Shown here piece by piece: positions 46,790 to 64,000 of a stretch of DNA of 64,000 nucleotides. Under the pieces are notes generated by a model. It was not told the DNA's origin. It searched no databases and saw only the letters and a list, made by a program, of their open reading frames with translations. Numbering within the stretch: the first letter of the stretch is position 1; each line of letters starts with the position of its first letter. The position numbers and the translations under genes are program-made. This stretch comes from Paramacrobiotus metropolitanus (taxonomy: Eukaryota > Tardigrada > Eutardigrada > Parachela > Macrobiotidae): NCBI RefSeq assembly GCF_019649055.1, contig NW_026570244.1:868001-932000 (forward strand), read 5' to 3'.

Positions 46790-47225
46790 AATTTGACCAT
46801 GAACAGGATTTGACCAGCGGGCAGCTCTGCTTGCCGCTGAACATCGCCGGACACGGACGCACCAAGTTCAGTACGACACTGCGCAGCTCGTGTCGGTGTG
46901 TGGACCTTCATAAAGGTGGGGGCCACTGCACGCAAGTCAGTGCAGGAAGCCTTCTGCTGGGCGAATGGGCAGCGGATCCAGCATGAAGTGCGGTGAACGA
47001 GAACGCTGATCACACCAGATCATTCGGACTATTTTGACGCACAGGCCATAGGGTCGCATATATATATATATATATATATAAATAGGGTTGCATATACTCG
47101 TACCTAATAGATATTCTTGACCGCTTGACGCGATCTTCTGCTCGGCGAATCGTAAAAATAATCCTTTCAAGAACTACTGGAAACGAAACAAAAGCCATAC
47201 ACAACTGCCACACCTGGGTGTGGGC
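46790..47225 (-). pseudogene. relic of H-x4-H zinc-finger gene (promoter and exon 3)
   Basis: On the minus strand 46985-46800 is recognisable as exon 3 of the zinc-finger family: it opens FMLDPLP, and later the word GTTCAGCGGCAAGCAGAGCT parallels the second finger. Frame breaks and stops occur throughout and the Cys/His ligands are largely gone. At 47201-47220 it keeps the conserved upstream CTGCCACACCTGGG-type motif of the family. A (TA)n run sits at about 47058-47080. A similar relic lies at 51600-51900. Confidence 0.75.
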
Positions 47226-47851: not shown

Positions 47852-48251
47852 TATTGTAGCGATAGAAGTTGTACAGCCGTAAGACCACCCAGTTATGATT
47901 CATCATTGCGTTATGAATTCTTGTCCTTTTACCGGCTAGCTGTTCTTCTTCACAATTTCTAGAATTCAGTCATGCCTTCGCTTGTTACAGCTTGCATCAA
48001 CTTGATTAGCTTGTTCTGCTTGTTAAACTCTTGTCTAAACCTTGATCCCTGTTTTGCATTGTTCTTGTCATTAAACATGCCGTGAACTTCCGTTGTTACG
48101 TTCAGTAATTGTGTTACGTCAGTAAGAGCAGTCCCGGCCAGCATCGTTGCCGGCCGTGCCAACCTTTCATCCCAACAGCCCACACAACATCGTGGTACGG
48201 TCAACACGCCAACCCACTAGAACAGCAGCCAGATCGGCTACTGTTACAGTA
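47852..48251. mobile_element. 400-bp dispersed non-autonomous element, copy a
   Basis: Closely similar along its whole length (roughly 90 percent by eye) to 53525-53926. Ends are short imperfect inverted repeats (TATTGTAGC... and ...GTTACAGTA). It interrupts the 3' flank of the second LRR gene at a point where the other two LRR units (near 32010 and 43910) are uninterrupted. No coding capacity. Confidence 0.8.
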
Positions 48252-48385: not shown

Positions 48386-50665
48386 CTATTCCGACTTTCC
48401 CCATAAAATCTGCCCGAATTTGTTCACTTTATATGTTGTACTGTTGGCTGAGTCGGAAAATGTAGTTTGGAAGCCTTGCCTTTGCTGGACCGTATAGTTG
48501 CCGCACGTCCACATGCCGGTAATCGGCGAATTAGAGTGCATAATGTGTTCTGGAAATGGGAGCGGCTGCGGACGGAGTGGCTTGCGGAAGTATTTGCGCA
48601 GATTCTCCATGGAAGCACAGCGACATCGTGAGTCCTTTAGGCAGAGCGGATTCCACAGCAAATTCAGCCAGGCCCTTTCACCGGACGCTGACAGGCTGTC
48701 CAAAACGCGCTGGTCCACACCCGTCAGACTATTTCCATCGAGGTAGAGAGAATATATGTTGCGCATGACGAAGAAACGACTCGAGTAGAGTTGAGAAATG
48801 TTGTTCTGGGATAAACCCATCATCTGCAACAACAACAATTACTGTAACTACATACCCAGCCTGAAGACAAATAATTAAACGTTGGCTCGACCTGCACCTA
48901 ATTAATCGCGCCAACAAGAAGGGTCACCGTTTATTTATTTCCGGACGATTCGTTAGCATGCACCGTACAATGCAGAAGAAAGGTGGCGAGCGCTGCATCG
49001 CCGCGACTTGCGATGCAGCTGTTTGTGTAATGAACGGCACTCCTGTCATGACCTTTCCTTAATATCATGATTTCGTTGCGAATGTTATTATTTCGATTCG
49101 TTACGCTTACGCAGTAGGATACTGCGTCCATAACATTCGCAAAGAACCTATTATGGATTAAACCGCAAAACGCCGATTGATGTCGCTGCTTTTCACATGC
49201 TCTGATATTAAATGTGAATTAGCTGCCCTTAGCAGAGATTCTGGGGCATGGCTAACTGCGTTACCGGCACCGTGTCTTGGGACTTCCCTGCGAGATCAAG
49301 AAGTCCGAATAGGATTGGCTTTACGATTCGGATTACCAGCAGTGATTTCACATAACTGCGTTGCGTGTGGAAAAGTAGTGCAACCCAGACGGCCATCACG
49401 GGCTTTCACAGGGACGTCAATAAAGGGACGATGGGCCAGACATCGGGAGATGAACAGTACAGCAAAAAGCTGTTGCGAAAGTGCGGGATTCCCATGTCAA
49501 ATGGAACCGACGGGCTTATCACAAAGCGAAGCGAAACGACCTGATGGCATGACACTTATCCCAGTCCGTCAGGGAATGTGTCTCTTGTATGGGATGTACC
49601 AGTTGGTGTACTATTGCCGATTCCCATGTCCACGGAAGTTCGAAAAAAAGGGAAGTTTGGGCCACCTGGCAGAAACGCAAAGCGACGGAAATACTCTTCA
49701 CTAGAAAATCGACACCATTTTTATCCTTTAGTGATTGAAACGTTGAGAGTTTTCGGCCCAGCTTTGAGCGAAATGGTACATCTCATGGACCGAAAAATTG
49801 GTGAATTAACTGGAGAAGCGCGGTATACTGCTTTTATCAAGTAACGTTTTAGTTAGGCTGTCATTAAGGGAAATGCTACTGCCGTGTTAAGTACTTTGCT
49901 TTTAACCCGCGGGGGGACAGCGATTTTGGTTGTTTTTTTAATATTTAAATTTTAACTGTGATGTAGAGTGCCAAAGCTTGCCTTTTTGTTATTTGATGGC
50001 TATTGCCTGTGCAGGTGAATTAGTGTTATGTTTCTTACCTCGATGTTAGACGCCAGCGGTTTAAAGACAAACCAGTCGAACATTGGGAAATGGTTGCCGG
50101 TAATGGCCAGGTATTTAAGCCGGTTTGGTAACGCGCTCCCACTAACCGGCGTCAATGACTAGAACGCGTCGAGCGCAATCGTGGACATGCGGTTGCGCAT
50201 CAAAATTAGGTACGTTAACGCGGAGAATCCCGCCAATGTGTCCCGCGTGAGGGACGGCAGATAGGTATCCACGATTTTTAACATGACTAATCGCTCTTTG
50301 ACATTGACCAGAAACGCGCCAACCGGAAACGCTGCATCGCCGGCCGACGTGCTTACGAAGGAGATTTTAACGGATGTGATGTTGGCCAGCGGCGGCAGCG
50401 GATCCGCAGTGGGCAGAACAAAGTGGGAACTGCATATCTCCGAATCCGGTGGGAAGAGGCCTATGCGCAGCAGGTCGACGCTGGGCGGAATGGCACTCAG
50501 ATTATACACGGGCTGGTTGCATGTGCAGCTCGGTACGTGTACAAGTACTTCTGGGCTGCAGGATGGCAGTTTATGAAGACTGAGGAACTCGGTGCCCTTA
50601 CTCCCGAAGAAAGCTCTGACCGGCGTCAGAAACAGGGTTAGCAAAACTGATACAAGGACGATCAT
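48386..50665 (-). pseudogene. secreted LRR protein gene with one in-frame TAG (2 exons)
   Basis: Exons 50665-50039 and 48823-48386 join in phase 0 and have normal splice sites. They would encode 354 residues with the same layout as the 44-45.7 kb gene: signal peptide MIVLVSVLLTLF, Cys-rich N-cap, leucine-rich repeats, and a C-cap with WNPLCLKDSRCRCAS. Codon 169 (50161-50159) is TAG where the intact paralogue has CAG (Gln176). Everything after it remains in frame and well conserved, including LAITGNHFPMFDWFVFKP. Either the stop arose recently, or the protein is truncated to 168 residues, or the stop is read through. The 1215-base intron contains an antisense LINE fragment and is over twice as long as in the paralogue. 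Confidence 0.8.
49288..49845 (+). mobile_element. LINE 3'-end fragment, frameshifted
   Basis: A plus-strand segment inside the intron of the broken LRR gene. The first frame (LRDQEVRIGLALRFGLP, a Cys-rich CVACG segment, then KRPDGMTLIP) and, after a frameshift near 49580, a second frame (VWDVPVG, then LMDRKIGELTGEARYTAF) together match the C-terminal domain that follows the reverse transcriptase in one type of animal LINE (family recognised from memory). Reverse transcriptase and endonuclease are absent, so it is 5'-truncated and decayed. It is antisense to the host gene. Confidence 0.75.
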
Positions 50666-51527
50666 TCTTCCTGGCCACAATATATACTGTAATCAGCAGT
50701 AATAAAGTCTATTACTAATTTACTGTTACTGCAGCCGACGTCAGCACTATTTCGGCACGCGATAGCTTTAATCAGCTGCGAAGTGACTTTGGTAGCTTAA
50801 AGTTTTTGCCGTACACCGCCGTAAGACATACTGTATAGTTTACAGTACAACTTTCTTATGACCTCTGGTTACCTGTGGTTTGTACGAGTACTTTGTCGTT
50901 ATTACGTACGAGGTCAAATTTCTGTTCTAAAAGAGTGACCACCTTCCCTAACACTGTCAGCATTACTCACTGCGAACAGCGAATATCTTTCCGCAGACTA
51001 ACGGAAATTAATGCAGTGCGAAGTGAACGAGCAATTGTTAAATGAATAACTGGGGTCAGTGACAGTCACACCGGCTAAACTAGCTGTGTAAAGATAAGTA
51101 CAAGTACAGTACCTGTAGGTATTGCGTATATATCTATATTAGCGGTGGTTGCGAACCACATTACTGCACGAGCGCGAGCGCTAATACCACTGGGAAATGG
51201 TACTGGGATTGTGGAACTGGAAAAGTGTTACGTACGCTCTTCGTGGCGTCAGACAAATTTATGCTCTTGACGATCAGTTAATTGCAGCACCTCGCGCTTC
51301 GCGCTCGGTGCAAATAAATGAAATAATACATGTGGTTTTATTTGCCCATGCGTGCAAGAGCGGAGCCAGCGCGATCACAAGCTGCCGCCCGGGGCCCATT
51401 TCAACCGGACGCGGAAATCCGGTATCCGCTCCCCCGCTCGATCGGCATTCAGCTAAATCAAAATCAGCATGAATCCAATTTGGCTTTTGTCGTGGTCAGC
51501 TTGCTAAGAGAGTCGTGGCGAAGCTGA
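50666..51527. other. 5' flank of the second LRR gene, no gene seen
   Basis: Similar in its first ~120 bases to the 5' flank of the first LRR gene (45665-45800). Beyond that no paralogous or coding sequence is recognised. Confidence 0.45.
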
Positions 51528-51599: not shown

Positions 51600-51900
51600 A
51601 TTATTCTTGACCAGCGAGCAGCTCTGCTTGCCGTTGAACATCGCCGGAGTCTAAATGCCGTGCAGTCGTGTGGTCTAAATGCGCCTTCAGCATGCATGTC
51701 CGGGCCGTTGCGTGGCAGCCGTTGCGGGCCTTTGCCTGCTCGCCGAAAGGTCACGGCAGCGGATCCAGCACGAACTGCGGTGAACCAGAACGCTGACCAC
51801 GTCATATCCTTCGCACTATTTTGACGCATAGGGTCGCTTCGCGCTGCACAGCTCTTGACGCGATCTTCTACTCGGCGAATCATAATCATAATAACACACT
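51600..51900 (-). pseudogene. relic of H-x4-H zinc-finger gene (exon 3 region)
   Basis: On the minus strand it resembles the relic at 46790-47160 (shared GCAGCTCTGCTTGCCGTTGA and CGCGATCTTCTACTCGGCGAA-type words as read on plus) and exon 3 of the functional copies (GCAGCGGATCCAGCA on plus). Frame and ligands are destroyed. Confidence 0.7.
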
Positions 51901-52611
51901 TCACCGGAAATAGCGGAAGTTATGTCATTGACATTAATAAATTGAATACGAGCATGTCACACGTACTTCCATTGCTGCCCAAAAAAAAATCATGAAAACA
52001 TATGATGATTCTTATTGCTAATCAATGTAATCACTGTGGGATTTTATTTCTCAGTACGTACAAAGTGAGCTCCGCTCAACAATCACTGTTATTAATCGCA
52101 TTTGCATACTCCATAAATCCATATTAAACTTTAAAAAAATGGTGGTGACCCTTCCGTTTACAGTCTTCGACAGCATTCACTCGTTGACAACCGGCTGATC
52201 GCGGAAATACACACGCAGTTAGTTACGTACTAGCCTACTACTGAGTAGGCATTTCTCGGCATCCATAAACAAAAAAAAGCCATTTCGGTACTGGCAAGAT
52301 ACAGCCGGAAATGCAAAATAACCGCCAGAAGCCGTCCGCCAACGAACCAGAACTGGACGAGAAAGGTCATCGATCGCTTGACCGATGGTTTATTCTAACC
52401 TTAGCGTCAATAAGGAAAACAAAAACACATTTACAAATTACAGGAGGGGAAATATCCGCACAATACGTGCTTCGTCAGACGCGCAGAACCGCGAGATGAT
52501 GGCGTCGCAGCGCCGGAAACAGAGCTGAGGCAGCACGGAGTATCACTGCGGAAACACCTGGCCTTGGTGGACAGTAACACTGCCCGTTGACATCGTCGAC
52601 AGTGTTAGCTC
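51901..52611. other. spacer, 3' flank of the first zinc-finger copy
   Basis: Shares words with 55150-55880, the 3' flank of the second copy (CCTTCCGTTTA, CGTTGAC, CCGGAAATGCAAAA), showing that the tandem duplication unit included this flank. No gene. Confidence 0.6.
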
Positions 52612-54787
52612 TCAAGGCACTGCGGGCTCTGTCGCGGGCGCATTCCAGACGTCGCGGTGCTCGGCCCGGACGTGCCACAGCATGTAGTCGCGCTGACAGC
52701 CCTCGCCCAGGCGCAGAAAGTCGGCGCGGCACCCCTGCAAACAGGAGAAGGTCACGCCGGCATCCGCAAGCTCAACTACCCCGCAACGCCTCAGCTCGGC
52801 GACCTACCTCCACGGGACACTGGTACCAGCACACGCTGCGTGCACGGTCAGTACCGTCGGCGGGAATGCGGTCCTCCAGCGCTCTCAGCCTCTGCAAAAC
52901 ACTGACTGTCAGTTGTCCTGCCTGACGCCGGAAGTGGCAAGTTTCTGCCAACCTGTTGCGCTTCCGGCGAGTAATCCGCCGACCATCCATCAGCTCGGGG
53001 TGCATGGCCTTGACGTGCAGTTCCATCTTATCATCGGAAGCGTTCAGCAACCGCTCGCAACCCTGCCAGGTACAGCACGCCGCGGTCATCACCGCCAGCG
53101 GGAACTAAACAGCGACGGGAGTGTCGCGACTTACCGGCGCCGTGGTACCGCCGGCTTAGTAGCAAGTCGTAGCGCTGTCCGTGCTGCTCCATCATGTGCA
53201 GGTGGATTCCGAAGCCCGAGTCGATGGCGTGGTCGCTGCAGGGATCGATGCTGCACATGTACTTGATGGTGCCGTCCTGCAGGAAACGTCGGACTATCGG
53301 TAATGGCGCACCACACTGAAGTACACACCCATACACAGTACCCACCTTGTCGACTTGCGTGGGGATGACGATCCTGTCGGGAATGATCTGGCTGGGGAAC
53401 AACCGGTCGGTCTTGTAGGCCCACGCCGGGAACCGGGAGCGGCGGGCGTGCGCCAGGTAGTGGAGACGCTTCTGCAACGGCGCCCAGTGAAGCAGGTAGG
53501 TAGTGCACATGCATAAACAGTGCATATTGTAGCGACAGAAGTTGTACGAGTACTACCATAAGACCACCCAGTTATGATTCATCATTGCGTTATGAATTTC
53601 TCTCCATTTTACCGGCTAGCTGTTCTTCTTCACAATTTCAAGAATTCAGTCTTGCCTTCGCTTGTTACAGCCTGCATCAGCTTGATCAGCTTGTTCTGCT
53701 TGTTAAACTCTTGTCTAAACCTTGCTCCTAGTCTTGCATTGTTCTTGTCATTAAACATGCCGTGAACTTCCGTTGTTACGTCGTCAAGTTAGTAAGAGCG
53801 TCCACGACCGCGCCGTTGCCGGTCGTGCCAACCTTTCATCCCAACAGCCCACACAACATCGTGGTACGGTCAACACGCCAACCCACTAGAACTAGAAAAG
53901 CAGCCAGATCGGCTACTGTTACAATATCCAGTGGCAGCAGCCTACCTGCTCTCGCTGCGGATCGTCCACCTTCGCCTCGTCCGGCTTCAAGGCGGCCCGC
54001 ATCCTCCGGTAGTACTTGGCGTGGTGCTGGTGCAGATGCTCGCGCAGGCGCATGTCGCCGGGGTCGTAGAAGGCCCGCGGACAGCTCTTGCCGGCGTTGC
54101 ACTGCGCCGGACAGGGGCACAGCACGTTGAGCAGCGCCCTCTGCAGGCCGGGGTGCGTGGCCTGCAGGTGCGCCTGCAGATGGCGGGGCTCGCCCGCGCG
54201 GAAGCCCTAGCAGGCCTCCACCTGCGCGGCGAAGGGGCACGGCAGCGGGTCCTCCATGAGCTGCGAAAAGACCCGCACTCAGACACTCCGTCACTATACT
54301 CTGCTTGACAACTCACATCGACACTGCCCATCACCAGCACGTGCTGGCTGTCGGTCGTCTTCGAGGCCCGCACGAGCATCTTGTCGGGGATGCTGAGGGC
54401 CATTTGCTCGGCGTCCGTATCGGGTCGCCCCAGCATCGCGCAGAATTTCTGCACAAAGTTCGTCAAGAACAGCACAACGCACGCGATAGCAGTACTGAGA
54501 ACAGATCGAACATCACAGCTTTAGCTCCTTACCAGTCTTTCCTTGGCTGGCTTCTTATCCTTGCTTTCTGCCTCCGCCAGCTTTACAGAAACATCATCCG
54601 GGGGCGCTGTATTTGAGCTGCCATTTTCTGAGGAAAATTGGGCGGATGGCGAAGTGCTGTCGTTGTGGGACGTCGGAGCGCACGCCGAGTTCGTCGCTTC
54701 GGCTGCTAGTCGGATTGGGCCTCCGTCATCATCCTTATCTTCGTCCTCGCATTTTAAGGCCGATACAGTATTGACTAGCTCAGACAT
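52612..54787 (-). pseudogene. H-x4-H zinc-finger family, copy 1 (broken)
   Basis: Eight exons are recognisable: 54787-54533, 54448-54317, 54260-53946, 53471-53346, 53276-53135, 53062-~52953, 52891-52808, 52734-52612. They encode an acidic Ser-rich N-terminus (DEDKDDDGG), a KFCAM..SIPDK segment, and five finger modules. Defects: a TAG at 54209-54207 right after the second Cys of finger 1, where other copies have Arg or Gln; loss of two bases at the end of exon 5, deleting a Cys of finger 4 and shifting the frame; and a shortened exon 7. Exons 2, 4 and 8 are otherwise clean, so decay is recent. The intron 53945-53472 holds the 402-bp dispersed element. It lies at the 3' end of a tandem array with copies 2 and 3. 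A truncated product or readthrough cannot be excluded. Confidence 0.82.
53525..53926. mobile_element. 400-bp dispersed non-autonomous element, copy b
   Basis: Second copy of the element at 47852-48251, here inside an intron of zinc-finger copy 1 where copies 2-4 have only ~85-110 bases. Ends TATTGTAGCGACAG and, on the other strand, TATTGTAACAGTAG form imperfect inverted repeats consistent with a TA target. No coding capacity. Confidence 0.82.
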
Positions 54788-55934
54788 TTTGCGTAATACG
54801 TCAGTCAATCTGTACGTATACAACGTCAAACTCGAAAGGAATGCAAGATGAAAGTCGACAACGACAAGTACTGGAAAGATCGACACGACCTGTTTTCGTG
54901 AACTGAGTCACTGATAAAGCAAAAGCCCTTCCAGTCTGCCGCACCTGGGCGGTTACCAACCTGCCATCGCTTTCGGTCATCGGAACTTCCTACGAGTGAA
55001 TCGGTTCTTTTAAGTTTTAAGTTACCAATCATGAATATGAGTACTAAATGACGAATCACGATTATCACTAATCAATGCAAATTTACATTTGCTTCCGGTG
55101 AGTAAATCAACCATCAGCAGTATGCAATCACTGTTACTGGATCAATCGCAATTATCCATATCAAATCCAAAAAATTATGGCCTGATGATAAATAAGGTGA
55201 TCCTTCCGTTTATAATTTTGAACTGCATTCCCTCGTTGACTACCAGATTAAAAAAAAAGTAAGACACTTAATTATACTAACTGTAAGTTGTATCAGTTGT
55301 ATGATGTACCTAATACCTATCATGTATGCGACTGCACAGTGCACAACCGGAACTGGTAGTTCATTTCTACAGGCGGAAGTGCACCAGTTTCTGAGTATTG
55401 GCGAGGTTAGCACCAGGTCAAACGCAGACAAGTCTTCTCCGGCGCCAAAATTAACGGCTGCGTGGGCTTTATTAGAAGACTGCGCGAGCACTAGCACTTT
55501 ACAGCCATACGTAGTTTCAGCTAATTTTCGCGTTTCTTGTTTCTCGCATCCGCTGGATAATACAAGAGAAAATTGACACTACTCTAGTGACTATACGTTC
55601 TAGTGACTTGTATGCAACCAGTGCTAGCAGGCGCATTCCTCAACATCAGTACAAAAACAGTTACTTCGGCATCGGCAAGAAACAACCGGAAATGCAAAAG
55701 AACCGGCAGACGCCGGCCGCCAGTGAACTCTAAGCAGACAGAACGCGCCGAGAAGGGCCGCGTATCAACTGCCTGTTTATTTACTCGAATTTCTGCCGTA
55801 AATAAAAAACTACTGTCAATTGACAGATTACAGGAGCGCAAATATCGAACAGAACATGCTGGGTCAGATGCCTAGATCCGCGAGGGGAAGGAGTCGCTGG
55901 GCCGGAAACAGGGCTGAGGCAGCACCACTGAGCA
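54788..55934. other. spacer between zinc-finger copies 1 and 2
   Basis: The left part is the promoter side of copy 1 (with the conserved motif at 54933-54953). 55150-55934 is the 3' flank of copy 2, resembling 52100-52560. No additional gene. Confidence 0.6.
54933..54953 (-). promoter_or_regulatory. conserved upstream motif of zinc-finger family (copy 1)
   Basis: As read on plus, AGTCTGCCGCACCTGGGCGG; preceded by AAGCAAAAGCC. It lies ~150 bases upstream of the copy 1 ATG. Matching sequence lies upstream of copies 2 and 3 and of the 47-kb relic. Confidence 0.6.
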
Positions 55935-58383
55935 TCATTGCGGAAACACGTGGCCTTGGTGGACAGCAACACTGCCAGCTGACAGCGTCGACGATGGTAG
56001 CGCAGGAGACGCTGCGGCCTCTATGGCCGGCGCATTCCAGAGGTCCCGGTGCTCGGCCCGGACGTGCCACAGCATGTACTCCCGCTCACTGCCCTTGTAG
56101 CCCATGAACACGGTGTCGCACGTCTGCACAACCGAGGCGAAACGTCATGCATTACTGCATTAGGCATTAGCATGGCAACTAAGCGCGCCAATCACAGTCA
56201 TACCTCCACGGGACAGGTGTAGCGCCGCATGAACAGTGCCGCGGTCCCGTCGCCGCCGTCGCTCGCTTGCAGACCGTTGGTGAGGGCGCCGCCGATGCAG
56301 TCGGGCGCAATCTGCTCCTCCAGTTTCTTCAGGTTCTGCACAAAACACCGCGTGCTAGTCGTCGCTAGTGAAATAAGACCGATGAATATCGGTTGAGTCT
56401 GCTTACCTGTTTGGCTGTCTCCGAGTAGTCGGCGGACAGTCCCAGCAGCTGCGGATGCAGGGCCTTGACGTGCGACTCCAGCTGTTCATTGCTGGCAGAA
56501 ATGAGCGCCTTGCACTCCTGCCGTTCATGCAATTGCAGCGTGGTTAACTGGGCAAGCAAGAACAGCTGGGTGACTGCATCGATGGACAAGACACGTACCG
56601 GGCATTCGTGGAAGAAGGTGGTGTCGGCCTCGAAGCGCTTCTCGTGCTCGGTCCACATGTGCACGTGTAAGCTAAAGGCCGGTCGCGGTCCGCCCACGCC
56701 GATCGCTTCGTTGCGGCACGGATCCACGTTGCAGAGGTACTGGATTTCCTCCTTCTGCACGACACGAGTTGTCAAGCGTCCGGAATTACCTCAACTGCTT
56801 AACTGTCAGTCGACGAGCACGCCTTGGTCACCCACCTGGATTTGGGTGGGAATGACGATCTTGTCGGGAATGATCTGGCTGGGGAAGAGCATGCCCACGG
56901 TGTAGGCCCACACGGGGAAGTAGATGCGGCGGGAGCGCAGTCGGTAGTTGAGACGCTTCTGCACCGACCACACTCATTTTCACAATCAATCATAATTATT
57001 ATAAATTAACTGAATTATTATTATTATATTTTATTCATTAATTACCCGGCACCGTGTGATTGGCCCTACCTGTGTTAGTCCGGGATCTTCGTCGGCGTCG
57101 GCCGGCTCCAAGGCGGCGCACATGGTGGCGTAGTATTTGGCGTGATACCTGCGCAGGTGCGCCGCCACGTGCATGTCGCCGGGGTCGTAGCAGACCTCGG
57201 TGCAGGTCTGGCCGGCGTTGCGCTTGGCCGGGCATGGACAGACGAAGTTGAGCAGGACGTTCGGCAGGTCGTGCTTGGCCTGCAGGTGCGCCTTGAGGAA
57301 GAGCGGGGCCGTCGCGAAGAAGCCCCGGCAGGGCGTCTCCTGCGCGGCGAACGGACACGGCAGCGGGTCCATGGAAAACTGCAAAAAACGTGCACTGCGG
57401 AAACTGTCACGAAGCGAGTGAAGCGCAGCGTACATCGACAGTGCCCATGACCAGCACGTGGTGAATGCCCGTTGCTGGCGAGTGGCGAACGAGGATCTTG
57501 TCGGGGATGCTGATAGGCAGCTGCGTCGTCTGGTAGTCGGGACGCTGCAGCGCCGCGCAGAATTGCTGCAATTAATAGGAGCATTCGTCAGCAATCCAGC
57601 ATTCATTGCGATGATCCGACTTATCTGCTTCCCTGTGGCCTTTGCAGACAGTTTAGAGAATTCACTCTCAAATTAGCACAAGAACACACTTCCAAGGTAC
57701 CACGATAATCTTACTGCGTGCGAGGAACCCAGACAGAATTCGCCGACGCTAATGTGCGTCTGCGCTAAACGAAAGGCGTGACAAGGACAACTTTTGGCAA
57801 CTGACCTGCGCCGCCTCTGCCGAGTGTCTGGCGATAATCTGCGCGAAATCCCGTCGCGGCCGTTGTTGCGCTGCTGGCTTCTCTTGCGCAGTAGTCTGCT
57901 GCGGAGGGTCCTGCTTCACAAGACTGCTCTCTGGACAAGATTTCTGCAACTAACTTTCCTCTCAGGATTTCAATTTAATGTTCTTTTACCATTAAGGTAC
58001 TTGTACACCCATCCCGCTAAGAAAGGCACAGTCAACGCCAGTCACTCGACTGCAGCGCAATCCGCACATCCAGCTCGTAATCGCAAGCCAAAAATGAAGA
58101 GAAGCAACTGCAAATGCCAAGTCATCTCGCTGCTTACCAGTTTCTCGTCGGGCGACTTAATGTCCATTCTTTCAGCAGACCCTCGGTGCGACTGCGCAGA
58201 CACACTGCCCTGAAATTCCTCCACACAATCGCTTTCCGGGGACAGCGGGACTGGTGATGAGCTGCTGTCGGTGTGGGACGTTCGATCGATCGCAGGCTGA
58301 GTACGCAACTGCACCGAGTTCGCCACTGCTAGTCGGGCTTCTCCCTCATGATTCTCATCCGGGACTGTTTTGCACACGGACAT
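55935..58383 (-). CDS. H-x4-H zinc-finger family protein, copy 2 (9 exons, 511 aa)
   Basis: Exons: 58383-58138, 57943-57806, 57565-57434, 57378-57070, 56958-56836, 56754-56599, 56517-56407, 56335-56204, 56123-55935; all phase 0 and GT-AG. Residues 1-128 are acidic and Ser/Gln-rich, ending in a short helix (FAQIIARHSAEAAQ). Residues 129-172 form a conserved segment with SIPDKILVRHSP. Then come five C2H2-like modules: C-x8-C-x13-H-x4-H, CPC-x9-C-x14-H-x4-H, C-x4-C...H-x4-H, C-x2-C-x13-H-x4-H (cysteines split by an intron), and C-x4-C...W-H-x4-H (also split). A basic KRLNYRLRSRR / LFPSQIIPDKIVIPTQ segment lies between modules 2 and 3. Zinc binding is inferred from ligand spacing. No known family was recognised; nucleic-acid or protein binding in the nucleus is a guess. 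All reading frames are clean, implying selection. Confidence 0.85.
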
Positions 58384-59424
58384 GGCGTACCTGCTGCGCC
58401 GTAGCACCTTTACAAATCTCTACGACCCAAGTTTCAATAATTTATATAACGACTTTTCTTCGCTAAGAAAATCACAACTGGAAAACTGCACCGCGACAAG
58501 CAAATTCAGTACTCGTAGTGTGTCTTGTTTGAGTTGTTTCCATCTGCAAGAATCAAAGAACGAGTCACTGACGGAACAAAAGCCGCATCAGACTGCCACG
58601 CCCGGGCGGTGCTATCGCTTCCGCCGGAAGTCACCACGCTTCGTTCAAATTCTTGAAAACGTTTACTTGTACATGCGAGTATTTTAGTCTTACTAAGCAC
58701 TTTATTACCATAATTATGTTATTACCATATTCGTGCTAATAACCATTGTTCATAATTAAATTTAGAAAACAGATGACCTCTGCGTTAACAATTGCAGGAG
58801 CATTCTCTCGTTTACAACCTTCTGCTGTTCGCCAGCAGTCCTGTGACTCCTGTTGATACTTTACTGAAGTGCACTCCTTCACGGCTTCGCCATGCACTGT
58901 CATAGTGCTTAGTGACTTGGATCTTTTATTGGGGTTGGCGGCACAAACCACAAAACAGTCAAACGTTATCCAAGTTATAAAGGTGGATTTCCACTAATAA
59001 GAATTGTATCGAAGTATAAGAGTTTGTACATTATGTATGAATGTATGATACATACTTCTACCCATCGCAAATTGCGTATTACACACACCATTCACTCGCC
59101 TATTCTACGGTTCCCTGTTTTCGCCCAACCATTTCCGTAGTCAGACGATTTGCGCCATGAGCTAAAAACAAGAACTTGCACGCACCGTCAGGCGGTGAGT
59201 TGAGCAGCGAGAACAGTGCTTCGAGATGGACGAAATGCCGTTTAATGTTTAATATTCCACCAGTCACGCAGAAATTAAAGACGGCAAAACATACATTTAC
59301 TCATTGACAAAATTCATCAAAGGAAGGCAGGTCAGATCCAGTCATTCCTCAGCGCCAACCCAGACGAGCTACCGATCACTGCGACGACACAGCGTGCGCT
59401 GCCGTGTTGGTTGAACAACGACAT
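58384..59424. other. spacer between zinc-finger copies 2 and 3
   Basis: Promoter side of copy 2 with the conserved motif at 58591-58610, then the 3' flank of copy 3. Related words to the other 3' flanks occur near 58770-58830 (CAGGAGCATTCTCTCG). No additional gene. Confidence 0.6.
58591..58610 (-). promoter_or_regulatory. conserved upstream motif of zinc-finger family (copy 2)
   Basis: As read on plus, GACTGCCACGCCCGGGCGGT, preceded by GGAACAAAAGCCGCATCA. About 210-225 bases upstream of the copy 2 ATG. Includes a CCCGGG palindrome. Confidence 0.65.
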
Positions 59425-61543
59425 TCAACTCGGCTGAGGACTGACCTCTGCCGCCTCCGCGGCCGCATCCCAGACGTCCGCGTGGTCGGCGCCCACGTGC
59501 CACAGCATGTACTTGCGCGCCGACCTCGCCTCGCTCAGGAACACTTTGCCGCACGTCTGCAAAGCGAACACATGAATTTACCATTTACGATGATCCCCGC
59601 AACGCCAGACTGCGCATATCCGGCGCATTGTTACTGACTGACATCCCACAAGTCTGTTCAATCAACAATTAATAATAAAACAAGCAAACTTATTCTCAAA
59701 CTGCTCAGTAGCCTACGGATGCCGGTAAGTAACGGAAACACAGAAGCAGTACTACCTTGACACTGACAGGGCACGTGTAACGCTGCAGCAACAGCTGGCT
59801 GCCATCGTCAGCCTGCGGAGTGTGCAGAGCGTTGGTGAGAGCCTCTCCGATGCGGAGGGAAGGGATGCTGTCCTCCAGATCCTTCCGCTTCTAAACAACA
59901 AACGCACACCTACTACGACGCTGATGTGGCGTTAATTGGACACAGTTGCAGTACCTTCTGGGCGGCCTCCGAGAAGACTTTGCTCAAGCCTAATACCTCG
60001 GGGTGCATGGCTCTGACGTGGGATTCCAGCTGGCGATCGCTGGCCAACACGATTTCCCCACACACCTGCAACAACCGGCCATGTAGTCATGTATTTACGT
60101 ACTCGGTCAGCAGTCAGTGGCAGTCACGTGTTGCGTGTGTGCTAATCTAAGAAACTCTATAAATTATTAAAGCAGTAATGTTTTGTCGTAGCAGTGAGAT
60201 TTGTATGCAACAGAATACGTGGATAAGATCAAAGCGACAAAAAGCACTGAGCAAGTATCAGTTAGCTGGACCTACGTTAGCCGTAGTTAAGTAGCACCGA
60301 CGCAGAGGGTATGCGACGCAAGGAGAACACCAAACGCTAGCGGAGTCTCACGTAATAAACCACCTATAGAAACCACGCTGCTCTGTCACCTCTTCGGCAG
60401 GGCATTTGTGGAAGAAGTTGGTGCCCAAATCGAAGCGGGACGCGTGCTGCATCACCAGGTGATGGTGCATTTGCCGCGAACCTTGTGGACCGCCAATCTT
60501 GTGATCCAGGCACGGATCGATGTTGCAGATGTACTTGATTTCACGCTTCCCCGGCTTCTGCACGAAACAACCGAGCAGTTCAACAGCTACTCTAGCACAA
60601 ATAATCAACCAATTCCTCATTAACATCACGGCCATGCCTCGCCATCCACGTCGCCCATTTCCGTGCGAATAACGATCCTGTCCGGGATGATCTGGCTGGG
60701 GAAGAGCTCCCCCTTGCTGCGCGTCCACCCCGGGAAGAACATGCGGCGGGCACGACGCAGAAACTTGTTTCGCTTCTACAAATCATCAAATGACAAGTAG
60801 TTACTGGTCTCCATACCGTGGTTTACAAAGTCCTTCCCAACTTCAGCAACACAGCACTCTTGTCGCTCTTGCCGACATGCGGATCCTCTCCTGGTTCGAC
60901 CGACTCCAGAGCTGCACGCACCGCAGTGTAGTACTTCCGGTGGTCCTCCAGCAGGTGCTTGCGCATGTACATGTCGCCGGGATCGAAGCGCACCACCGGG
61001 CAACTCTGCCTGCCGTTGAAGCGGCCCGGACAGGGGCACACGAAGTTCAGTAGAACATTGCACAGGTCGTGCTTGGCCTGCAGGTGCGCCTGCAGCAAAC
61101 GCGGCTCGCAAGCATAAAAGTCTTGGCAGGCCGCCTCCTGTTCGGCGTAGGGACACGCCAGCGGATCCAACATGAACTGCCATCAATCGCATATACAGAC
61201 TTCAACACTGTAATACTTACACAGAAACAAGGTTCCAAATTATTAATTTCTTAATCTTTACCATCATCTCGTCCGACGTCCCCTTAACGATACTTTCTGC
61301 AAGTCCACCGTACAGTTTCGATGGCAATTTGACAGAGACATCCTCCAGAGCTGCTTCATCCGGGCAGGCATTTTCTGGGGACAACTGGTCCGCTGAACTT
61401 GACAAGCTCTCGACGTTGTCGGACTTCTGATGGCTCGCAGCCGTCGAGCCAGTGCCCGGCGACGCTGCTTGTCGGGCTTGTGCTCCCTCAAAATCCTCTT
61501 CCTCGCATGCTGATGTTGATACAGCAGCGATTATCTCAGACAT
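59425..61543 (-). CDS. H-x4-H zinc-finger family protein, copy 3 (7 exons, ~417 aa)
   Basis: Exons: 61543-61262, 61176-60877, 60775-60650, 60557-60390, 60065-59955, 59890-59756, 59556-59425; all phase 0. The N-terminus (residues 1-94) is acidic and Ser/Ala-rich. The 44-codon segment carrying SIPDK in copies 1, 2 and 4 is absent: the first intron is only 85 bases and holds no such exon, so copy 3 has lost it without breaking the frame. All five finger modules are present with Cys and His ligands intact (CPYAEQEAAC, CPCPGRFNGRQSC, CNIDPC, KCPAEEVC, TCPVSVKTC, each followed by H-x4-H). Finger 4 has C-x4-C instead of C-x2-C. The donor of exon 2 (GTCGGC) is the weakest splice site and could be shifted. 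It is head-to-head with copy 4, 487 bases apart. Function unknown. Confidence 0.8.
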
Positions 61544-62030
61544 TATTGCATAGCAGACATTTATAAGTAAGTACTCGACACGTTGTCGATTGATATCTTT
61601 GGCGATCCACAAAGATTCAACACCAAACTGCAAACCAGGAATGCTGAAAGTACGAGGAAAGAAAGTCACAGCTCACAAGCCGTGACAAGTGAAGAAAGTT
61701 GAAAGTTGTATCAAGTTTCGAGTGTTTCATTTCAAGAACCGACAGAACAAAAGCTGTATCAGGCTGCCACACCCGGGCGGTGCGGGTGATCATTCCGTTA
61801 GCATGAATCATCTGCCATGGAGTGCGCTTAAAGTTAGGCTGGGGCCGCTGGGCTGATGATCCATGCGTTCATTGCGTTGTGCATGTTGCAGTTGCAGTGC
61901 AGTGTGCAGACTCGCAGACCTGAATTCACTTTCTAGATTCTACTGCCATCCAAAATTTCGAGTTTGTTTCTGCTCGTTCAAACGTGGTACTATCGCTGTT
62001 TTGTTAACATTAAAGTCAACTGCCAGAGTT
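61544..62030. promoter_or_regulatory. shared head-to-head promoter region of zinc-finger copies 3 and 4
   Basis: 487 bases separate the two ATGs, which point outward. The conserved family motif sits at 61761-61782, ~220 bases from the copy 3 ATG and ~250 from that of copy 4. The motif orientation matches copies 1 and 2, so it belongs to copy 3 by descent; use by copy 4 is inference. Confidence 0.5.
61761..61782 (-). promoter_or_regulatory. conserved upstream motif of zinc-finger family (copy 3)
   Basis: As read on plus, AGGCTGCCACACCCGGGCGG, preceded by AGAACAAAAGCTGTATC. Same spacing and orientation to its gene as in copy 2. Confidence 0.65.
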
Positions 62031-64000
62031 ATGGACGCCATGTCCGATTCGACGACTGTGTTGGCATCTTCCGAGGATGAAGATGAGAAGGGAACATCCT
62101 CGGAAGAGGACAAGGGAATCTCGGAACGTGAGTCGATCTGCGCTTCGCCAACCGATACCGTCGACCGAGCATCAAACAGCGATTACGGTTCGACGGGTTC
62201 CTCATCTGCCCAGTCGTCGCCAGAGAGCAGCCGCTTGAAGCCAGAGCCTCTCCCGGCCATACAGGAGAACCCACTTCCGAAAAAGCTGCGCGATTTTGAG
62301 GAGATCACTGCAAAATACTCGGCAGATGCGAAACAGGTGAGGAGCTGTTTTCGGTACACGAGCAGCGAGCTTGTTAAGAACTTAAGACTAATTATTATTA
62401 ATATTAGTAATTAGTCACTAATAAGTACAGTAGTGGCATTAGTGTACGCAGCTGCAAGAAAGTGACAGCATTACAGTAGTGATTACTGTAATGCTGTCAC
62501 TTTCTTTCAGCTGCGCATCTGAGACGTAAAGTATTCGTCGTTTCGATATTATGCTTCGTAGGGTTTAACATTTGTTTTCTTTTCGACAATCTGAGTGTTG
62601 ACGATGTGTTTTTACTGGCCGGAGTATAAGTAACATTTCAAGCGAAACATGTTAGTCCGTCTGGCTCAGTCAGCTAACAGTGCCCTGCATTGCAGAAATT
62701 CTGCGCGGCGACGCAGCGTCCTGATTACGAGGCGACGCAGATGGCGCTCAGCATCCCCGACAAGATCCTCGTTCGCCACTCGCCAGCAACGGGCATCCAC
62801 CACGTGCTGGTCATGGGCAGTGTCGATGTGCGTTCATTCCCGCATATCAGTGTGTCAGTTCACCAACGCTCTTTTCTGCGCAGTTCATGATGGACCCGTT
62901 GCCGTGTCCCTTCGCCGAGAAAGAGACGGCCTGCCGCGGCTTCTTGGCAAGGACCCCGCACTTTCTGCAGGTGCACCTGCGCACCAAGCACCCCCTGCCG
63001 AACGCCCTGCTCAACTTCGTGTGCCCGTGTCCGGCCCAGTACAACGGCGGTCAGACTTGTAAGGTGGCCACCTACGATCCGGGCGACATGAACATGGTGC
63101 CGCATCTGCGCAAGTATCACGCCAAATACTACGCCACGATGTGCGCCGCCTTGGAGCCGGTCGAAGCCGACGAAGATCCCGAACGGGTGCAGGTAGGGCG
63201 CACCGCACGGTGTCAGGGTGTTCAGATAGTAGTTAATAATATTTCCGACGCTGAAAGTGAGTGTGGTGTGGTGCAGAAGCGTCTCAACTACCGGACGCGC
63301 GCCCGCCGCATCCCTTTCCCCTTGTGGACCTACAGGAGGGACATGCTCTTCCCCACCCAGATCATTCCCGACAAGATCGTCATCCCCACCAGAATCGAGG
63401 TGGGTGTGCATGGCCGCTGTCCAGCGCGTGATCACAGACTCATAACTAAGCAGTTTTATTAATTCCCGACGTTTGAGCAACTCGTGTTGTGCAGAATGGT
63501 GAAATCAAATACATCTGCAACGTGGATCCCTGCAACGACCAACCGATCGGCGAGGGCGAACCGCGAGCGGCCTTCTGCTTTCACATCCACATGTACACCG
63601 AGCACCGGAAGAGGTTCAGCATGTTCACCACCTTCTACCACAAGTGCCCGGTAAGAGGCAGTCAGCCGGGTGTTGTTGCTTTCTGGCCGACGGTAATTAA
63701 AAGGCGATTGGCAGGGATGCGAGCGGATCCTCGTTGCCGCCCATGAAGAGCTGGAAACGCACGTGAAGGCTATGCACGAGGAGCTGCTGCATAAAGGAGC
63801 ACGCGTCGAATACTCGGAGGAGGCCAAACAGGTAGGCAGCTGCTTCCTCTGGCCGTTGGCTGGGGCTGGGCATGTCAGTACTCAGTAGGGTCCTCTTGCA
63901 GAAGCTGCAAGCGCTGGGAACAGCATTCCCTTCCAGTGCATCGGCGGCGCCCTCACCAACGGTCTGCAGCGGGACGACGGCGCCCCCGGGAGCGGCTCAC
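62031..64000 (+). CDS. H-x4-H zinc-finger family protein, copy 4 (runs off window)
   Basis: The plus-strand member. Exons: 62031-62336, 62696-62827, 62884-63192, 63277-63399, 63495-63650, 63715-63831 and a seventh from 63902 or 63937 past the window end; all earlier junctions are phase 0. Residues 1-102 are acidic and Ser/Glu-rich (SSEDEDEKGTSSEED) and end in a helix parallel to copy 2 (FEEITAKYSADAKQ). The SIPDK segment, fingers 1-4 and the basic linker are intact and closest to copy 2. In exon 7, one base is missing relative to copies 2 and 3. Splicing at GCAG (63901) would shift the frame, but an alternative acceptor TTCCAG at 63936 restores the family frame (CIGGALTNGLQ). Finger 5 lies outside the window. 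Intron 1 holds a near-perfect hairpin. Head-to-head with copy 3. Confidence 0.8.
62448..62514. repeat. near-perfect hairpin, 31-bp arms and 5-base loop
   Basis: Arms 62448-62478 and 62484-62514 pair over 31 positions with a single mismatch around the loop GTGAT; the inner arm contains GTGACAGCATTACAGTA and its complement. It lies in intron 1 of zinc-finger copy 4. It could be a small-RNA precursor-like foldback or a young palindromic element; the sequence alone cannot tell. Confidence 0.85.

Follow-up and report, generated by a model that had tools for sequence, protein, structure and literature searches.

Duplicated genes with five probable C2H2-type zinc-finger modules in the tardigrade Paramacrobiotus metropolitanus

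Are the Cys/His modules encoded by a cluster of related tardigrade genes a new kind of zinc finger, or a known finger in an unfamiliar form? The genes lie in a 64,000-nucleotide stretch of the Paramacrobiotus metropolitanus genome (NCBI RefSeq assembly GCF_019649055.1, contig NW_026570244.1, positions 868,001 to 932,000 of the forward strand), which is called the window throughout (G000:C24:868001-932000, where C24 is our label for the window contig and L-numbers are labels of fetched loci). Four copies of one multi-exon gene lie in the window: three of them (A, B and C) are read from the minus strand, and the fourth, D, from the plus strand. An original prediction for positions 51600 to 64000 described an undescribed-looking family of five-module proteins that could not be matched to C2H2, SIAH, TRAF or CHHC fingers. 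The family still looks undescribed, since no Pfam cut-off was reached and no description was found in the literature searched, a search that left most subscription journals outside its scope. The modules themselves very likely have a C2H2 zinc fold, and the genes probably make up a family of zinc-finger proteins, derived from C2H2, that is specific to the lineage and has been duplicating recently.

Conserved Cys/His modules

Each gene encodes five modules (F1 to F5), and every module ends in H-x4-H. Their positions in copy B are as follows.

57271..57357, minus strand, F1: C-x8-C-x13-H-x4-H, with no or almost no change of ligands across 23 aligned copies
57142..57240, minus strand, F2: three conserved Cys (C-x-C-x9-C), then x14-H-x4-H
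56644..56733, minus strand, F3: C-x4-C-x18-H-x4-H
56455..56604, minus strand, F4: C-x2-C-x13-H-x4-H when spliced; the intron at 56518-56598 splits the Cys pair
56049..56215, minus strand, F5: C-x4-C-x17-H-x4-H when spliced; the intron at 56124-56203 splits the Cys pair

The two His residues are kept in nearly all aligned copies, with the first and second present in 30/30 and 28/30 F1 modules, 30/30 and 30/30 F2 modules, 30/30 and 30/30 F3 modules, 29/29 and 29/29 F4 modules, and 21/21 and 21/21 F5 modules. This part of the original prediction was borne out, as was its report of two modules whose Cys pair is split by an intron, namely F4 and F5 under inferred GT-AG splicing. A hydrophobic residue is found three positions before the first His in 29/30 F1, 30/30 F2, 30/30 F3, 29/29 F4 and 21/21 F5 modules. 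F5 carries Arg at +1 (21/21), Tyr at +3 (21/21) and Trp at +6 (20/21).

The modules differ in how closely they follow the C2H2 spacing (Cys-x2-5-Cys, about 12, His-x3-5-His). F1 and F2 have Cys spacings outside it, and F3 approaches it (x13) only in short-loop copies. In 14 aligned copies F4 reads C-x2 or x4-C-x13-H-x4-H. The canonical x12 from the second Cys to the first His occurs in 9/20 spliced F5 modules, none of them from the window. No match to SIAH, TRAF or CHHC fingers was obtained, in agreement with the original prediction: the modules differ from those fingers in ligand order, ending in His-x4-His, and no such family name appeared in the Pfam scans.

The fingers are arranged in three blocks (F1-F2, F3-F4 and F5) that stand behind conserved linker segments and the acidic tail. 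In the translations the stretches between fingers run to about 10 to 60 residues, and no short conserved linkers join adjacent fingers. The SIPDK segment of exon 2 and the IPDK segment of exon 4 were considered as an internal duplicate, but this is not claimed (8-residue match, hhalign probability 18). Against the PDB, the exon-2 profile gave one chance match and the exon-4 profile none.

Similarity to C2H2 zinc fingers

A profile of spliced F5 from 10 copies gave 28 matches in the PDB, 26 of which carry the names of C2H2 proteins. The best match was REF6 (E 8.9e-6), which has H-x3-H, putting its second His a residue out of line with that of F5; it was followed by YY1 (E 1.1e-4, a score summed from partial matches), a Zif268 fusion (E 2.6e-4), TFIIIA, Sp1 and others, and 11 of the matches were Zif268/EGR1 chains or variants. 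The two matches without a C2H2 name were an unnamed protein and Box C/D snoRNA protein 1. The reversed F5 profile gave 5 matches, 0 of them C2H2, with a best E of 0.026. With spliced F4, 9/10 PDB matches were C2H2, among them Kaiso and, as the best, a ZFAT finger (E 0.006) with H-x4-H in register; the reversed F4 profile gave a single non-C2H2 match (E 1.7). The F3 profile retrieved only GLI, YY1 and GLI1 (E 0.065-1.7), with GLI finger 5 in register, and its reversed control found no C2H2 entry (best E 0.17). Judged by the E values of the reversed controls, F5 stands out clearly and F4 moderately, while F3 alone is not significant. An E5 profile, after an iteration that took in its own matches, also matched F1 to F4. 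The statement that the modules cannot be matched to C2H2 is therefore overturned, a strong profile match to a known finger family having been obtained with F5 against the PDB. Each module very likely adopts the beta-beta-alpha fold of a finger held together by zinc.

A distant relative of the family, locus L034 on contig C11, exceeded the cut-off of the Pfam family zf-C2H2_aberr (PF17017; cut-off 27 bits) in two exons, with 32.1 and 27.1 bits, and weakly matched DUF4729 (PF15866). It also matched the family's exon-3 profile rebuilt without L034 (E 1.6e-6 within the fetched loci; hhalign probability 94.7), and by reading its finger exon starts like that of the family. A genome search with PF17017 reached the cut-off at one other place, on contig C3, and lists no place in the window; PF17017 was likewise unmatched by six window exon reads and by copy B. 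Among single family members, 1/19 F3 and 1/23 exon-3 sequences weakly matched PF17017, and 2/10 F5 sequences weakly matched DUF4729. We infer that the expanded family is a derived branch, with L034 as its conservative cousin.

Selection on the family

In 244 paralog pairs with synonymous divergence (dS) of 0.05-1.2, the ratio of nonsynonymous to synonymous divergence (dN/dS), a comparison that the original prediction had proposed, had a median of 0.46 and was never above 1; for copy B against copy D it was 0.68. The family is under overall purifying selection. Among 12 chosen close pairs, the proportions of nonsynonymous and synonymous differences (pN and pS) at 21 ligand columns were 0.004 and 0.563, a ratio of 0.01 compared with 0.48 at 283 other columns. 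This measure is partly circular, the 11 Cys columns having been chosen since >=80% of copies keep them, and profile-based recruitment favours ligand-keeping copies, which may exaggerate the contrast between ligand and other columns. The 10 His columns alone, which were fixed by position in copy B, had a pN/pS of 0.016 in 12 paralog pairs, and 0/5000 random column sets were as low. The family behaves like a zinc protein under selection, in that the His columns hardly change while other sites do. The original prediction had drawn the same conclusion from ligand constraint amid divergence, and it is very likely that the protein is indeed selected.

Gene copies in the window

Splice sites in the following models are predicted from the sequence.

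55938..58383, minus strand, copy B: nine-exon gene model, open throughout, with open frames bounded by GT/AG and lengths that are multiples of three
58138-58383, 57806-57943, 57434-57565 (SIPDK), 57070-57378 (F1 and F2) and 56836-56958 (IPDK), minus strand: copy B exons
56599-56754 (F3 and the first Cys of F4), 56407-56517 (rest of F4), 56204-56335 (first Cys of F5) and 55938-56123 (rest of F5), minus strand: copy B exons, continued
62031..64000, plus strand, copy D: exons 62031-62336, 62696-62827, 62884-63192, 63277-63399, 63495-63650, 63715-63831, and 63902-64000 and on
59428..61543, minus strand, copy C: exons at about 61262-61543, 60877-61176 (F1 and F2), 60653-60775, 60399-60557 (F3), 59955-60065 (F4), 59756-59890 and 59428-59556 (F5)
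52615..54787, minus strand, copy A: broken, with a TAG stop at 54207-54209 in exon 3, inside finger 1
46809..46977, minus strand, exon-3 relic (F1-F2): frameshifted, in two frames (profile E 2.4e-5 and 1.7e-4; three-frame reading)

The original prediction counted three clean or nearly clean genes, a description that fits copy B, which alone is open throughout and is matched by every one of the exon profiles E2-E8; copies C and D fit it less well. The exon-2 profile finds no match to a SIPDK exon in copy C, which also has unusual donors after exons 3 and 4. Exon 7 of copy D is one base out of frame if read from the acceptor homologous to that of copy B, and by reading it is open from a TAG|GGT acceptor 13 bases upstream; a sequencing error is a possible source of the offset. 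The last exon of copy D lies past the window end, at 64116-64307 in continued numbering (locus L001). The one recently broken gene that had been reported is copy A, whose stop was also flagged by the genome search (C24:921955-922254) and which has lost the first Cys of F4. The count of at least three relics did not hold up, as a scan of all 64 kb with the exon profiles E2-E8, blind to exon-1 and non-coding relics, found one, outside the 51600-64000 range.

Exon 1 is acidic (D+E 17-22%), as the original prediction had stated for the N-terminus, and rich in Ser and Thr (S+T 21-26%), and by composition this acidic Ser-rich tail is probably disordered. The SIPDK segment, which had been described as common to the family, is present in 3/4 window copies and absent from copy C.

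Distribution across the genome

A translated search of the species' own genome with the copy-B protein gave at least 156 matches. Exon 3 was found at no fewer than 41 places (E<=0.001) on at least 12 contigs, with a minimum of 11 places on C24, 9 on C50, 5 on C339, 4 on C169, 3 on C248, 2 on C265 and 2 on C473, and at least one each on C18, C10, C84, C66 and C375. Some of these places may be haplotype or assembly duplicates, or relics, and the number of distinct genes is possibly lower because the mirror-image places on C50 and the places on C248 score near-equally. Between about 846 and 967 kb of C50, the order of the copies is mirrored about a point near 906 kb and their scores are near-equal, which is a large palindrome or an assembly fold-back. 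Exon-3 relatives outside the genome were not confirmed, either among 24 pattern matches in viral contigs or among 12 in prokaryote genomes.

The fetched loci comprise 33 copies, some of them fragments, and the distant L034. All exon profiles E2-E8 match in 13/33 copies, and E2-E6 match in 23/33. In a tree of 29 of the 33 copies, grouping is largely by contig cluster; the exceptions are window copy C, which groups with a copy at 798 kb of C24, and the copies of C339 and C169, which are intermixed. Close copies have introns and flanks in common, whereas L004 and L011, which lie on different contigs, share only pieces in the gene region (both observations come from the 45 locus pairs listed out of 201 that match). 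Together with the stop in copy A and the relic, the tree and the locus comparison agree with the local birth and death of copies that the original prediction had proposed. Locus L012 is 96% identical to L016 over 1.96 kb including the main exons, and about 73% identical upstream, with L016 shifted inside finger 1; the pair looks like a mosaic or the product of gene conversion.

Head-to-head pairs recur. They are found in the window at 61543 (minus strand) and 62031 (plus strand), on C24 at 798k/801k, on C473 at 2.0k/4.9k, on C339 at 15.3k/18.5k and 25.4k/27.7k, and on C169 at 49.3k/51.5k, giving at least six such pairs among the matches listed, which are not independent of one another. Copies C and D have their start codons 488 bases from each other and may share a promoter.

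Possible mode of action and alternative explanations

Several results weigh against the C2H2 reading of the modules. The F1-F2 profile found no C2H2 entry in the PDB, just two glycosidases (chance matches). No Pfam cut-off was reached by six exon reads from the window or by the copy-B protein after splicing; one read had two chance-level matches, spliced copy B matched 0 families at E<=10, and two peptides of L035 had chance-level matches. Searched singly against Pfam, F4 sequences matched a zinc ribbon best (Zn_ribbon_ACC, 3/14 members, best E 0.0012) and F5 sequences zf_CopZ (E 0.0094), with PF00096 at 0.11; C2H2-type names made up 7/15 of the families weakly matched by single members for exon 3, 1/3 for F3, 2/16 for F4 and 4/10 for F5. 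The F4 and F3 profiles align only over 10 residues common to both alignments, so homology between modules is not shown by that comparison, and in F4 and F5 the spacing of the Cys pair hinges on predicted splice sites. AlphaFold models of window exon 3 and exon 5 (4 rows each) were poor, with mean predicted local distance difference test scores of 46 and 58; F3 has the order strand-strand-helix at this low model confidence, and Foldseek with the F3 model gave two chance matches only. When the genome was searched with PF17017, the second exon of L034 stayed under the cut-off at 24.9 bits, and L034 against copy B reached only E 0.0022 genome-wide. A distinct zinc fold, like C2H2 in its Cys/His pattern only, would account for the unusual Cys spacing of F1-F2 and their lack of profile matches, for the failure of the tested window proteins to reach a Pfam cut-off and for the zinc ribbon as the best match of single F4 sequences. 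We nevertheless consider it very improbable, given the F4 and F5 matches with clean reversed controls, the iterated E5 profile that matches F1 to F4, and L034, which ties exon 3 to Pfam C2H2 families.

Taking the modules as C2H2-derived, F3 to F5 would be nearer to an ancestral C-x4-C-x12/13-H-x4-H, and F1 and F2 have enlarged Cys loops. The fingers would bind partner proteins and the acidic Ser-rich tail would regulate or recruit, while new copies would come from local and segmental duplication, with some decaying. A protein that works mainly as a docking adaptor is our tentative preference, at somewhat short of even chances, over a DNA-binding regulator. The fingers do not form the usual DNA-reading array, because they stand in three blocks with long spacers, and a protein-binding surface on F5 is argued from aromatic residues at contact positions. 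Less likely, though a serious competitor, is a set of C2H2 regulators that bind DNA and have multiplied through a conflict with mobile elements, in the manner of KRAB- or ZAD-type families. It would fit the F4 and F5 profile matches to DNA-binding C2H2 proteins and the many clustered copies with broken members, and pN/pS points the same way: putative base-contact positions have a value of 0.67 (0.43-1.04) versus 0.48 elsewhere, with 29/2000 random non-ligand sets as high, and they are faster than helix +1 and +5 (0.31), which DNA recognition could explain. Yet inter-His residues change just as fast (0.68) as the contact positions, the nearly invariant +3 and +6 positions of F5 are aromatic, spacers of about 10-60 residues part the fingers in the translations, and copy B, the copy scanned whole, has no Pfam match and hence no KRAB or ZAD. 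The suggestion that the genes take part in conflict or defence, which the original prediction itself offered as speculation, gained no specific support, since 0/244 pairs have a dN/dS above 1 and contact positions change no faster than inter-His residues; such a role remains speculation. Carriage of the gene by a mobile element is the least probable explanation and is not favoured, a judgement made without a search for terminal repeats or target-site duplications. Copies are many, dispersed and in part decayed, as such carriage would predict, but the multi-intron layout is conserved, close copies share introns and flanks, and L004 and L011 share only gene-region pieces.

Comparison with known systems

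Like the classical C2H2 fingers of GLI (finger 5), ZFAT, YY1, REF6 and Zif268, the family modules have two Cys, two His and a hydrophobic residue three before the first His, and the GLI finger 5 and the ZFAT finger also share H-x4-H in register with the family fingers. The family differs from these in the C-x8 to C-x11 loops of F1-F2, the long loops that lead up to the first His of F3 and of window F5, and the absence of a linker-joined array, and no Pfam C2H2 cut-off was reached in the window proteins tested. Its likeness to PF17017 and DUF4729 comes through L034 and weak single-member matches, and the window proteins tested are unmatched to PF17017. The finger itself thus appears to be C2H2-derived and not a new kind; what seems unfamiliar is the family, with its enlarged Cys loops, fixed five-module layout and fingers split by predicted introns.

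The KRAB-ZNF and ZAD-ZNF families are lineage-specific C2H2 expansions whose clustered genes duplicate and include decayed copies. The present family is also made of clustered, duplicating zinc-finger genes with decayed copies; it differs in having five modules in a fixed layout, no KRAB or ZAD found in copy B, and contact positions that show no strong excess of change. That it consists of undescribed, lineage-restricted five-finger adaptors, in which C2H2 was rebuilt with large Cys loops for docking and which occur in repeated head-to-head pairs, with birth-death turnover driven by a genetic conflict in immunity, in the germ line or in the control of mobile elements, is an unlikely combination.

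With more than 30 copies, intact and broken, that go unseen by Pfam in those tested, the family could be missed by domain-based zinc-finger counts. A survey of zinc-finger domains in four tardigrades focuses on C4 types (PMC12941274). The family shows how far C2H2 loop length can drift with four ligands fixed. If conflict or lineage-specific regulation were true of it, its intact and broken copies side by side would make a good test set.

Other features of the window

Intron 1 of copy D contains a near-perfect inverted repeat (a hairpin, by eye) at 62455-62515. A short repeat of about 45 bases at 52039-52084 has many matches across contigs, mostly 86-93% identical, and is possibly a small mobile-element end. 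Almost identical out-of-gene peptides are encoded at about 48150-48230 and 53820-53910, the latter in an intron of copy A, and their similarity indicates a repeat present at both places. On the minus strand at 48386-50692, open frames resemble leucine-rich repeat proteins by eye.

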